This document shows, in pieces, positions 19,715 to 59,296 of a DNA stretch of 64,000 nucleotides. Each line of letters opens with the position of its first letter. The stretch's first letter is position 1. Under the pieces are notes generated by a model. It was not told where the DNA came from and did no database searches. It was given only the letters and a program-made list of their open reading frames with translations. A program made the translations under genes and the position numbers. Origin of the DNA: Proteiniphilum saccharofermentans (GTDB lineage Bacteria > Bacteroidota > Bacteroidia > Bacteroidales > Dysgonomonadaceae); the NCBI RefSeq assembly GCF_900095135.1, contig NZ_LT605205.1:3720001-3784000 (forward strand). Reading direction: 5' to 3'.

Positions 19715-19756
19715 ATTCACAATTTCAAATTCAAAACTCAAAATTCAAGATTCAAC
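19715..19756 (+). repeat. Heptad array upstream of mutS (first)
   Basis: Six 7-nt units: ATTCACA, ATTTCAA, ATTCAAA, ACTCAAA, ATTCAAG, ATTCAAC. Register is kept throughout, although bases vary. Confidence 0.75.
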
Positions 19757-19773
19757 AATTTAATGTACTGTGA

Positions 19774-19815
19774 TAATTAGTCATTAGTAATTGGTAATTG
19801 GTAATTGGTAATTAT
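19774..19815 (+). repeat. Heptad array upstream of mutS (second)
   Basis: Six units: TAATTAG, TCATTAG, TAATTGG three times in a row, TAATTAT. It ends 11 nt before the GTG start of mutS. The three identical units could slip during replication. Confidence 0.85.
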
Positions 19816-19826
19816 AAAAAAGATCT

Positions 19827-22442
19827 GTGGGAAAAAAGATAGCAGAAACACCGATGATGAAGCAGTACGTTGAGATAAAAACACAACATCCCGACGCTAT
19901 ATTGCTGTTTCGTGTAGGTGATTTTTATGAGACATTTTCGGATGATGCCGTCGTGGCTTCAGAAATACTGGGTATTACACTTACACGAAGGGCAAACGGT
20001 ACGGCGCAGTTTGTGGAACTGGCAGGTTTTCCTCATCACGCTCTGGATACCTACCTGCCCAAACTAGTGCGTGCAGGCAAACGGGTGGCTATCTGCGACC
20101 AATTGGAAGATCCAAAGATGACCAAGAAACTGGTGAAGCGGGGAATTACGGAATTAGTCACTCCTGGGGTCTCTATCAACGATAACATATTGAACCACAA
20201 AGAAAACAATTTTCTTTGTGCAATGCATATGGAAAAAGGGAATCGGTTCGGGACTGCTTTTCTCGATATTTCTACCGGTGAATTCCTCACTGCTGAAGGG
20301 ACAGTGGATGATATTGATAAGCTTCTTTCCAACTTTGCTCCGAAAGAGATACTAATTGAACGGGGCAATAAAAAGAAGTTTGAAGAAGCCTTCGGTTCTC
20401 AATGGTTCCTTTTTGAACTGGACGACTGGATTTTTACTGAAAGCAGTGCCCGTGACAGATTACTTTCCCATTTTCAGACAAAAAATCTGAAAGGCTTCGG
20501 AATAGAGCAGCTTACACAAGGAATTATCGCTTCGGGTGCCATACTCCACTATTTAGACATCACACAGCACAAGCACATTGGCCATATAACCTCCCTGTTA
20601 CGTATTGAAGAGGAACGTTTTGTAAGACTCGACAGATTCACCATACGCAACCTGGAACTGATCAACCCTCTCAACGAAGGAGGAAAAAGCCTTCTCAACG
20701 TGCTCGACAAGACTATCTCTCCCATGGGGTCGCGACTATTACGACGGTGGGCGGTATTTCCCCTCAAGGAGGCTAAACCCATCGAGGACCGCCTGGAGGT
20801 AGTAGAACTCTTTTTCCGTAAGCCGGAGTTGAGAATATTGCTTGAACAGCAACTCTCACTCATAGGCGATTTGGAACGGATCATCTCTAAAGCTGCCACG
20901 GGAAGGGTCAATCCGAGGGAAGTAGCGCAATTGAGAGTAGCGCTCACTGCCATCGAGCCAATCAGGGAAGCTTTCCTCTCATCCGAGAACCAAAGTATTG
21001 TAGAGATGGGGGAGAAACTCGACCCCTGCCTCGCGATCCGGGATCGTATTGAAAAAGAGATTGTCCCTGACCCACCAACCTTGCTACATAAGGGTGGATA
21101 TATAAGGAAGGGTGTGGACAAAGAGTTGGACGAACTGCGCCAGATCGCCTATTCAGGTAAAGATTACCTGATGCAAATCCAGCAACGAGAGAGTGAAAGG
21201 ACCGGTATACCATCGCTAAAAGTAGCTTTTAACAATGTATTCGGCTATTATATAGAGGTACGCAACACACATAAAGACAAAGTCCCGGCTGACTGGATAC
21301 GCAAACAGACACTAGTAAACGCCGAACGGTATATCACGGCAGAACTGAAAGAATATGAAGAGAAGATCCTGGGAGCCGAAGAGAAAATTATCTCACTTGA
21401 GAACCGTATTTACTCCTCATTGGTTGAAAGCCTGCTTGAATATATTCCCGCTATCCAGACCAATGCTAACATAATTGCCCGGGCCGATTGCCTTCTCTCC
21501 TTCGCCAACGCAGCACAAGAAAACAAGTATATCCGGCCGGAAATCAACGACTCCGAAATCATCGACATAAAAAGCGGGCGCCATCCGGTAATCGAGAAGC
21601 AACTCCCTGCCGGAGAACCGTTTATTGCAAACGACCTTTATTTGGATAGTGAAACCCAACAGATCATCATCATCACCGGGCCCAATATGGCGGGAAAATC
21701 GGCACTCCTCCGCCAGATTGCACTCATTACATTGATGGCACAGATAGGATCATTTGTACCGGCCGATTCCGCAAAGATCGGACTGGTAGATAAGATATTT
21801 ACCAGGGTAGGCGCATCGGACAACATCTCACTAGGTGAATCCACTTTTATGGTAGAGATGAACGAAGCGGCGAATATCCTTAACAACTTGTCGGATCGCA
21901 GCTTGGTCCTTTTTGATGAACTGGGACGGGGTACAAGCACCTACGACGGTATCTCTATCGCCTGGGCGATAGTGGAATATATACACGAAAATCCGAAAGC
22001 ACGTGCCAAGACACTCTTCGCTACGCATTATCACGAACTGAATGAGATGGAGAAATCGTTCAAACGCATTAAAAATTATAATGTGGCGGTAAAGGAGATC
22101 GATAACAAGGTGATCTTCCTGCGTAAATTGATGCCGGGCGGAAGTGAGCACAGCTTCGGTATCCATGTGGCAAAAATGGCCGGTGTTCCACAAAGTATTA
22201 CCAACCGGGCGGATGCGATCCTTGCCCAGATGGAATCCTCCAACCGGAAAGAGATGATCAAAAAGCCCATTCAGGATTTTGTGGAAAAACGGGAAGGCTA
22301 CCAGTTGAGTTTCTTCCAACTGGATGACCCAATCCTCAGCCAGGTGCGTGACGAGATCATCAACCTCGATATAAACAACCTAACCCCCATCGAGGCACTC
22401 AACAAACTAAACGAGATCAAGAAAATTGTCAAAGGAAAATAA
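19827..22442 (+). CDS. mutS: DNA mismatch repair protein MutS
   Basis: 871 residues, full length for MutS. The N-terminal mismatch-binding domain carries the F-x-E-type wedge in [13 protein letters not shown]. Connector, lever and clamp domains follow, then the ATPase with Walker [10 protein letters not shown] (about 617-625), Walker [17 protein letters not shown] and THYHEL. It recognises mispaired bases and recruits MutL. The start is a GTG at 19827; a later ATG pair (MMKQY) is possible, but homologues begin with the same [15 protein letters not shown] head. Two heptad arrays lie just upstream. Confidence 0.96.
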
Positions 22443-57205: not shown

Positions 57206-57215
57206 CTACAATCAA

Positions 57216-59249
57216 TTACCAAATAGAAGCCCGTTCCTCTTCCGGCAGAAACATCGGATCAGAAGGCTGAATATTAAATGCTTCATACCATGCACCGATA
57301 TGGGGCAATGCACCATCTACACGCCATCTGCCTAGCGAATGCGGATCGACTTTCGTGAGGCGAAGGATTTCAGCATCACGTACATTGCCGGCCCAAAGAG
57401 CGGCATAGCTCAGGAAGAAACGCTGCGCCGGAGTAAAACCATCGAGAAATTCTCCTGCTTTTGCCTGCTGCGTTTTCAGGAATGCATGATAAGAGACCTG
57501 CAACCCGCCATGATCGGCAATATTCTCTCCGAGGGTAAAGCTGCCGTTGGCATGCACGGTATCAAGCACCACAATATTGTCGAAATAATCGACCAGCACT
57601 TTGGCTCTCTCCTCAAACCGTTTCGCATCTTCGGTAGTCCACCATTCAGCCAAATTTCCCTCCTTATCGAATTTGCGCCCCTGATCGTCGAAACCGTGCG
57701 TCATCTCATGGCCGATCACTACGCCGATACCGCCATAATTGATCGCATCGTCGCCATCCATATAGAAGAACGGGGGCTGAAGTATTCCGGCGGGGAAACA
57801 AATTTCGTTGGATGATGGATTGTAATAGGCATTGACCGTCTGGGGCGACATATACCATTTCGCTTTATCGACCGGCTTGCCCAGTTCATCAATCATCTCG
57901 GCGTAGGCAAATTCAGAAGCACGTACTATGTTCTGCCAGTAAGAATCATCCTTTATCTGGAGCGAAGAGTAGTCTTTCCACTTATCGGGATATCCTATCT
58001 TCACGATAAACGTACTCAGTTTTTCCTGCGCTTTCGCTTTCGTGGCATTGCTCATCCATTCCAGATTAGTGATCCGTTCACCCAAAGCTGTCTTCAGGTT
58101 ATTCACCAGCCCGAGCATCCGCTCCTTGGCTTCCGGCGGAAAATATTTTTGCACATAGAGCTGCCCGACTGCCTCGCCCATCGCTCCGTTCACGGCATCG
58201 ATACTTCTCCGCCAGCGAGGACGAAGTTCCTTACTGCCGCTCAATGCCTTGCCATAAAATTCGAAGTTGGCGTTGACAAAATCATCACTGAGATAGCCGG
58301 CGGCAGAATTGATTACTTTCCAGCTCAGATAGTCGCGCAGCACTTCTACCGGCTCTTTGTCGATAATGGCGATAGCGGTTTTCACCGGTTCAATCTGCGC
58401 AACATTCAGGCTGTCGATACCGGCAGCGCTCATCTCTTCCAAATAGTATGCCCATTCGAACGGGGCAACCGCCCTGTTCAGGTCAGCCACTGCCAGCTTA
58501 TGATAGTTCAGTTCCGGTTGACGCCGCATCTCTTTGGTGAAATGCGCTCCAGCCAGTTTGGTCTCTATATTCAACACATTCACGGCTGCTTTTTCTGCAT
58601 CGGCTTCATCATAACCTGCGTTCCGGAACTGTGTCTTTATCAGCTTTTCATACTCTCCCCGAATCATTCTGGTATGCTCATCCTGCAACAGGTAATAATC
58701 CCTGTCGCCCATGCCTATGCCTGATTGGTAAAGGTGCGCAATATTCATGGAACTGTTCATGTCATCGGGGCCTACATAAAATCCGAAGAACGGGTTAGAA
58801 GCATAACGACTTACCTTAGCCGTCAGCCGTATGATATCTTTCTTGTCGGACACCGTCGCAATTTCTTCCAATTGTGCACGGATAGGTTCAGCACCATCGG
58901 CATTCAACTTCACACTGTCGAGACCCATTTTATAGAGGTCGCCCACCTTTTGCGCATTGGAGCCTACAGGGTTTTCCTGCTTTCCGAGTTCCTCTATCAG
59001 GGACTGTATCTGCACCTGGTTATTTTCGCGCAATTGGTCGAAAGAACCGTATCGGGCGTATTCATCGGGGATAGGGTTGGCCTTTTGCCATCCTCCGGTA
59101 GCATATTGGTAGAAACTTATCCCGGGTGAGGCCGTGGTGTCGAGATTAGAGAGGTCGAGCCGTTCCTGCGGCTGTCCTGTTTTCTGCTGTGTGCAGCTTG
59201 TGGTGATCATAACAGCTAAAACGATAATAGGATATACAATCCGTTTCAT
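57216..59249 (-). CDS. M13 family (neprilysin/PepO-like) metallopeptidase
   Basis: 677 residues with lipobox TTSC, so membrane-anchored. N-terminal M13 region (LDTTASPGISFYQYATGGWQ) and catalytic domain with zinc motif HEMTH (H514, E515, H518) in GHEMTHGFDDQGRKFD, third ligand in ENIADHGG, and the substrate-binding NAYYNPSSNEICFPAGILQP. Cuts small peptides at hydrophobic residues. Starts after a TGTCTTG-family heptad array. Confidence 0.93.
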   Translation of the reverse strand: MKRIVYPIIVLAVMITTSCTQQKTGQPQERLDLSNLDTTASPGISFYQYATGGWQKANPIPDEYARYGSFDQLRENNQVQIQSLIEELGKQENPVGSNAQKVGDLYKMGLDSVKLNADGAEPIRAQLEEIATVSDKKDIIRLTAKVSRYASNPFFGFYVGPDDMNSSMNIAHLYQSGIGMGDRDYYLLQDEHTRMIRGEYEKLIKTQFRNAGYDEADAEKAAVNVLNIETKLAGAHFTKEMRRQPELNYHKLAVADLNRAVAPFEWAYYLEEMSAAGIDSLNVAQIEPVKTAIAIIDKEPVEVLRDYLSWKVINSAAGYLSDDFVNANFEFYGKALSGSKELRPRWRRSIDAVNGAMGEAVGQLYVQKYFPPEAKERMLGLVNNLKTALGERITNLEWMSNATKAKAQEKLSTFIVKIGYPDKWKDYSSLQIKDDSYWQNIVRASEFAYAEMIDELGKPVDKAKWYMSPQTVNAYYNPSSNEICFPAGILQPPFFYMDGDDAINYGGIGVVIGHEMTHGFDDQGRKFDKEGNLAEWWTTEDAKRFEERAKVLVDYFDNIVVLDTVHANGSFTLGENIADHGGLQVSYHAFLKTQQAKAGEFLDGFTPAQRFFLSYAALWAGNVRDAEILRLTKVDPHSLGRWRVDGALPHIGAWYEAFNIQPSDPMFLPEEERASIW

Positions 59250-59261
59250 ATATTTGATTAT

Positions 59262-59296
59262 TTAGATACAAGAGCCAAGAATCAAGACACAAGACA
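59262..59296 (-). repeat. Heptad array, TGTCTTG family (M13 peptidase start)
   Basis: Minus strand: TGTCTTG, TGTCTTG, ATTCTTG, GCTCTTG, TATCTAA, then 12 nt to the start codon at 59249. Four of five units agree with the array at 23253. Confidence 0.9.

Follow-up and report, generated by a model that had tools for sequence, protein, structure and literature searches.

Heptanucleotide repeat arrays at gene edges in Proteiniphilum saccharofermentans share a strand polarity at gene starts and stops

The window analysed here, a stretch of 64,000 nucleotides (nt) from Proteiniphilum saccharofermentans (NZ_LT605205.1, positions 3,720,001 to 3,784,000), raises the question of what kind of element makes up its thirteen intergenic arrays, which keep an exact 7- or 8-nt register while the bases of their units vary, and of what governs where, and on which strand, they lie. 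Our analyses reveal that they are heptanucleotide, less often octanucleotide, simple-sequence repeats (SSRs), a known kind that is well populated in this genome, and that the heptamer arrays follow a directional rule: the arrays at gene stops carry reverse complements of families at gene starts, and at either end versions of one loose theme tend to be read inwards, into the gene. The preliminary description of these arrays noticed neither the polarity nor the unit families that loci have in common, nor that arrays also stand at stop codons (34 of the 74 blocks with a clear assignment, the other 40 being on the start side). That heptanucleotides are over-represented in some bacterial genomes has been documented for years, but no cause has been put to the test; the inward/outward signature at starts and stops is sharp and cheap to survey, and any model of such arrays must explain it.

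That the arrays exist with strict period was readily reproduced, Tandem Repeats Finder (TRF; minimum score 30) recovering twelve of the thirteen. The one not listed, at 29082, belongs to the TCTTGNN family in a shortened form, and is also absent from our strict in-register scan, in which an array has at least 17 of 21 in-register matches at a given lag (at least 16 of 21 at the looser cut-off). In noncoding DNA of the window, scanned at lags 2-30, strict clusters occur at lags 7 (6), 8 (2), 14 (3), 21 (3) and 28 (1) and at no other, compared with a lag-7 mean of 0.015 and maximum of 1 in 200 dinucleotide shuffles (lags 4-12). The wider genome sample comprises the window and 60 stretches of 20 kb, i.e. 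61 sources and 1,264,000 nt of a 4,414,963-base genome; genes are the longest open reading frames (ORFs) from our own caller, giving 122,263 noncoding and 1,141,737 coding nt. In its noncoding DNA strict arrays number 60 at lag 7 and 15 at lag 8 but never more than 5 at the remaining lags between 4 and 13, and the multiples 14, 21 and 28 have 39, 23 and 13, whereas coding DNA holds only 7 at lag 7 and 50 shuffles gave a lag-7 mean of 0.18 (maximum 1). The lag-7 signal, part of the check that had been suggested, is thus far above that of shuffled noncoding DNA, and arrays are present well outside the window. At the looser cut-off 63 of 546 noncoding segments of at least 60 nt contain a lag-7 array (lag 6: 2; lag 8: 24; lag 9: 3). 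The distribution is patchy: 21 of the 60 sampled stretches are without any array and, within Proteiniphilum, lag-7 arrays number 0 in 200 kb of G013, 0 in 100 kb of G008 and 32 in 500 kb of G010.

Nine of the thirteen arrays (19774, 23253, 29082, 32501, 43718, 46503, 52125, 57117 and 59262) have a start codon no more than 40 nt away, as was originally noted; at 23253, 29082 and 32501 the longest ORF extends into the array itself, and the ATG on the far side of the array was taken. The lack of arrays at 1.5-11 kb likewise holds (0 in 2,228 noncoding nt, versus 8 in 5,195 nt of 11-64 kb), with only about 3.4 expected there. By contrast, the view that each locus mostly has its own unit did not survive, since four of the thirteen arrays share TCTTGNN and unit families recur across the genome. 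Oriented by the nearest gene end, the recurrent families are TAATTRG, TCTTGNN/TCTTGAA, TTCACTT/CTTCATT, CATAAYT, CAAYTGT and TTCTAAC.

Arrays outside ORFs numbered 95 and gave 105 homogeneous blocks, on which the polarity was assessed. Of these blocks 31 were ambiguous and dropped; each of the 74 clear blocks has one gene end no more than 30 nt away and the other at least 20 nt more distant. Among pairs of similar blocks, in which 52 of the 74 clear blocks are involved, 111 of 113 fit the same strand at starts and the opposite strand at stops, compared with a mean of 56.5 and a maximum of 85 in 2000 random flips. In G010, where 23 of 37 arrays are clear, all 28 pairs are concordant (null maximum 25). 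Alignment over unit rotations yields a loose inward-read theme, T-N-N-Y-N-A-Y, with an information score of 152.9, as against no more than 130.4 in 60 random flips and no more than 94.3 in 60 column permutations, and a two-fold cross-validated motif places 69 of the 74 blocks inwards. Applied as a fixed motif to other genomes, it reads inwards in 22 of 25 cases in G010, 5 of 6 in G048 and 17 of 22 in five further genomes; G048, these five and a further genome, G090, were chosen for holding TCTTGNN, and the stretches of the five surround its matches. The corresponding figure for 80 loci of other Bacteroidales, a few of them from the same genus, is 22 of 28 (p 0.0037), and for the pooled Bacteroidales, leaving aside this genome and G010, 48 of 63 (p 3.8e-5). 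Three cyanobacterial plasmids contain few clear arrays, 5 of the 7 being inward.

The rule follows the gene edge. At the two margins of intergenic regions, each taken as the outer fifth, sequence windows read into the neighbouring gene in 32 of 32 and 19 of 21 cases here, with a motif trained on the same genome, and in 21 of 22 and 19 of 20 in G010; in both genomes the orientation changes over in the middle of the intergenic region. Co-directional gene pairs hold 99 of 118 sequence windows here and 96 of 97 in G010, and the others here, too few for a judgement, are inward in 7 of 11 cases in divergent and 5 of 8 in convergent regions. Isolated 5-mers at gene edges have weak polarity. Background composition was rejected as a cause: non-periodic gene-edge windows have no inward excess, and at starts rather an outward one, dividing 133 in and 186 out at starts and 163 in and 142 out at stops here, and 53 in and 85 out at starts and 48 and 64 at stops in G010.

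Several results weigh against such a rule or limit it. On the 80 Bacteroidales loci a pair test with looser criteria did not reach significance (15 of 29), and pairs of these with arrays of this genome gave 36 for and 28 against. G090 does not follow, with 0 of 2 pairs concordant and 4 of 7 inward by motif. Crude family patterns leave 8 exceptions, of which four stop-side TAATT blocks look mis-filed (e.g. AATTGAC, GAATTAA) and the other four may be real. Period-8 arrays skew oppositely in A/T, only 2 of 12 clear arrays being T-rich inwards, and the rule is therefore confined to period 7. Finally, the genes in these counts are longest ORFs rather than curated calls.

We consider it somewhat probable, at roughly 60%, that the arrays are slippage-made heptamer SSRs at gene edges with a directional constraint on the inward strand. 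We infer a slippage motor, by which arrays would be made and remodelled through gain and loss of whole 7-nt units, i.e. by strand slippage and perhaps unequal exchange, with point changes arising in units and then spreading through further slippage. A frameshift filter would act beside it: arrays would persist in untranslated gene edges because a 7-nt insertion or deletion within a gene shifts the frame. The directional constraint comes on top, the inward strand carrying versions of T-N-N-Y-N-A-Y at start and stop alike.

Comparisons between relatives bear on the first of these steps. The array at 59262 has exactly one 7-nt unit more than its counterpart in Proteiniphilum acetatigenes, the rest of the leader being nearly identical, so that comparison of unit number, also suggested at the outset, did reveal a whole-unit difference. 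At L093 a 37-nt array here corresponds to some 250 nt in the orthologous region of G010, and at 52101-52172 G010 holds different units with the register kept; orthologous regions do not all align as clean multiples of 7. Whole-unit differences and in-register unit change likely reflect slippage plus point change, which they fit, short of proof. Of the two causes first put forward, slippage or local copying is thus favoured, whereas selection on spacing is not: variation between unit positions is only mildly uneven, with a variance over the 74 clear blocks of 0.0057 versus a null mean of 0.0021 and maximum of 0.0048 (40 runs).

For the cause of the polarity we see two candidates: a DNA-level origin, by which the direction would be given while arrays form or lengthen at gene edges, and a strand-specific transcript effect, which would depend on the strand that is transcribed. 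It is possible, if short of probable, that arrays arise both ways and that selection keeps those whose transcripts are harmless on entering a gene and harmless or useful on leaving it. Such a one-way effect is consistent with a polarity that tracks the gene edge, not the unit, and that switches mid-intergenically, and with a sense strand that has a purine fraction of 0.616 at stops but 0.430 at starts, where it is pyrimidine-rich. However, TAATTRG is polar without strong purine bias, and RNA folding provides no sign of selection for open leaders, the mean start-side z being -0.22 (n 43) and, in G010, -0.42 (n 19).

A DNA-level origin, in which arrays extend 3' ends that face outwards from genes, e.g. 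when intergenic DNA breaks, synthesis stutters and the ends are rejoined, with units that are telomere-like in their outward sense, we regard as rather unlikely. In its favour, an outward array abuts an inward array at L137 (12351), L144 (6755) and L093 (4045), and at L237 in G010, and 70 and 75 convergent pairs are reported for two Xanthomonas strains (Rehm 2015, PMC4692102). Against it, no enzyme is named, and the two sides of a region are not family-matched; in 15 two-ended regions similarity is 0.540 within regions versus 0.571 across regions, and hairpins or inverted copying within a region were rejected on the same comparison, the arrays at the two ends being no more complementary within a region than across regions. 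Nor is there an age gradient, the two halves of arrays being 0.741 and 0.747 identical, i.e. equally uniform (0.790 and 0.765 in G010, p 0.06), which likewise led us to reject growth from one end. The residual periodic signal does, however, tail away more towards the intergenic side (0.343 versus 0.252, p 0.002; G010, 0.370 versus 0.292, p 0.17).

It is doubtful that the arrays, TCTTGNN above all, are dispersed copies that spread from gene to gene along with the adjoining leader, whether through gene conversion or in the form of small mobile leaders. TCTTGNN occurs at about 63 places by our own grouping, and the spacer order TG-AT-GC recurs at several of these, some with similar upstream sequence, but the other families are simple runs of units and the theme covers units that differ too much to have been copied. 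Translation safety, whereby the inward strand is without ATG before starts and the outward strand provides stop codons after stops, is a very unlikely cause: inward-read start arrays contain 22 CAT versus 4 ATG, but blocks with neither ATG nor GTG on either strand, of which there are 38 once the ends are trimmed by 3 nt, remain fully concordant (45 of 45 pairs; null maximum 38), such that start-codon avoidance is insufficient, and the published unit GGGAATC is free of start and stop codons alike. G-quadruplex regulation, the setting in which this polarity was reported for G-rich heptamers (Rehm 2015, PMC4692102), has next to no probability here, for although one G-rich array (GTGGGAT, L165 1739) runs outward at a stop, 69 of the 74 clear blocks are without GGG or CCC and among these 103 of 105 pairs are concordant (null maximum 80); the polarity holds for units without G-tracts, and the quadruplex account is therefore removed as a general one. 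The directional rule in this genome is independent of both G-tracts and start codons.

Cyanobacterial STRR heptanucleotides have period 7, are intergenic and consist of degenerate units, as do the arrays here. The preliminary description, which knew of no described equivalent here, was apt in comparing the two, and heptamers of Bacteroidetes are in print (MacGregor 2015, PMC4679880). Among long SSRs of 5-11 nt, heptanucleotides are the most abundant (Mrazek et al. 2007, via PMC4679880 and PMC4692102); that work, as cited there, resembles ours in finding an intergenic heptamer excess in scattered genomes and in proposing slippage, whereas our arrays are imperfect, were found by register and were tested for polarity. 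The direct repeats of TAACTGA in Beggiatoaceae, some Cyanobacteria and Bacteroidetes (MacGregor 2015, PMC4679880) are likewise heptamers just before starts, more rarely towards stops (147 sets facing start codons, 12 facing stop codons), with 7-nt insertions or deletions between strains, but form a system of one unit, as opposed to the many families here. The direction published for TAACTGA agrees with that of the arrays here. No TAACTGA consensus was noted by eye among the listed arrays of this genome, in which CATAACT and TAATTGA occur; one TAACTGA unit lies inside an array of G010 (L230). Tandem repeats of Borgs (PMC9879509) are similarly A-rich on one strand and of independent origins, but are perfect, have other unit lengths, belong to archaeal elements and lie also in ORFs.

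A precedent for the polarity is that of the GGGAATC and GGGGA(C/T)T heptamers in Xanthomonas and Nostoc, which have the same strand polarity at starts and stops (Rehm 2015, PMC4692102); polarity as such is therefore not new. These heptamers also share stop-codon overlap, about four units as the typical size and length variation between relatives with the arrays here, but differ in having G-tracts and quadruplexes, through which that paper, in the parts drawn on here, treats the polarity, finding no role. All four published units have their higher score on the present motif when read inwards, with two margins too small to count, those of the Nostoc units (2.29 versus 1.91 and 1.95 versus 1.85). 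No statement of a directional rule across units was found in the open-access literature searched, which apart from the papers named was covered at the level of listings. A general law, by which any bacterial heptamer unit, whether in Bacteroidota, Cyanobacteria or Gammaproteobacteria, is a version of T-N-N-Y-N-A-Y read inwards from both gene ends, we advance tentatively and think more probably wrong than right; needing neither G-quadruplexes nor codons, it would point either to an undescribed gene-edge DNA process or to a transcription element working in one direction, and this may also be what fixes the period at 7.

Within the window TCTTGNN arrays lie at 23253, 29082, 32501 and 59262. Genome-wide, the pattern has 100 matches versus 8 for its reverse, and, counting this genome, it is present in 23 of the 149 from the order; G082, which belongs to a different family of the order, has a similarly built array that overlaps a predicted gene start. 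Typically 3-5 units are followed by ATG, often with TCTAA in between: for 30 arrays ATG lies 4-24 nt past the last unit in 22, 45-47 nt past it in 2, and in 6 there is none within 55 nt. Ten TCTT blocks detected by periodicity, a biased choice in that they were picked for consensus TCTT and variable last two positions, are constant at the first four positions in 46 of 46, 43 of 45, 45 of 48 and 41 of 46 units, and nine of the ten are start-side. The subfamily may be a real multi-site leader element, and gives a specific candidate to consider for multi-site regulation. A role of the arrays as promoters was rejected, TAnnTTTG, which we take to be the Bacteroidota -7 element, having just 3 matches within 110 nt upstream of TCTTGNN arrays, in 2 of the 30. 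RbpB was set aside as an array binder, the parts of the RbpB literature drawn on here containing no short motif to compare.

The TCTTGNN arrays at 29082-29108 of the window, L104, L136 and L192 have a common upstream sequence around AAACGAGCATG, about 40 nt before the array. Rfam, at gathering score and over six sources including the window, gave no match at arrays or at this upstream stretch, and three tRNAs only. Inverted array pairs, which are potential long hairpins, occur at L160 (4744-4816) and, around TCTTGNN arrays, at L174 and L181.

Table 1. Periodic arrays of the window, with positions counted from its first letter.
Array	Position	Strand	Context	Detection or remark
Period 7, unit about ATTCAAA	19715..19760	.	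40 nt past stop (19674), between stop and mutS	TRF
Period 7, TAATTRG	19774..19814	+	12 nt before GTG start of mutS	TRF
Period 7, AAGTGAA	23076..23098	+	Overlaps thymidine kinase gene stop, outward orientation	TRF
TCTTGNN	23253..23292	+	Before ATG at 23306	TRF and family pattern
TCTTGNN, short, degenerate	29082..29108	-	Before GH88-type gene	Missed by TRF and strict scan
TCTTGNN	32503..32533	-	Before SusD-type gene	TRF and family pattern
Period 8, weak	43719..43762	.		TRF score 30
Period 7, AATGAAA	46503..46526	.	26 nt upstream of 2-oxoglutarate dehydrogenase E1-type gene	TRF
Period 8, TTTCCACC	46584..46622	.	Divergent region, >100 nt from either gene	TRF
Period 7, CATAACT	52124..52143	-	Into CorC/CBS-type gene start	Conserved in P. 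acetatigenes and G010
Period 7, TCAATTG/TCAACTA	52151..52215	-	At LptC-type gene stop	G010: different units, in register
Period 8	57110..57163	-	Before lumazine-binding (riboflavin synthase type) gene	TRF
Period 7, TAATTDG	57164..57204	-	Reverse complement in gene sense, about 11 nt from peptidase gene stop	TRF
TCTTGNN	59264..59296	-	14 nt before peptidase start	P. acetatigenes one unit shorter

Genes adjoining the arrays of the window include mutS, thymidine kinase and LptC-, SusD- and riboflavin synthase-type genes (Table 1). Within 19715-22442 the gene behind the two arrays at 19715 and 19774 is mutS (871 amino acids, five MutS domains), and unit changes there could in principle alter expression of mismatch repair. 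Period-8 arrays precede the riboflavin synthase-type gene in three relatives, with differing units (57110-57163 in the window, L011 9844-9884 and L015 8078-8115).

The protein encoded at 57216-59249, which we take to be an M13-type peptidase, is 92% identical to that of P. acetatigenes DSM 18083 and 64% identical to a Dysgonomonas protein. By eye, a TAnnTTTG box precedes the array position in its leader and in those of 6 of 7 orthologues; the Dysgonomonas leader has a long AATTCAT array and that of UBA5283 a repeat-free stretch of similar length.

A dispersed intergenic sequence of about 80 nt, around GCAAACTTGTTTGCATTATGCCGAG, lies between or inside arrays at L144 (2700-2890), L149 (17540-17740) and, in G010, L129 (near 2860-3000); at one orthologous site, as judged by eye, it is in G010 and absent here (L133 16366-16439). 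A 20-kb stretch without a heptamer array, L105 (3400001-3420000 of this genome), is 99.8-100% identical to L221/L222 of G010 and reflects recently shared DNA, most other long matches being at 81-95%.

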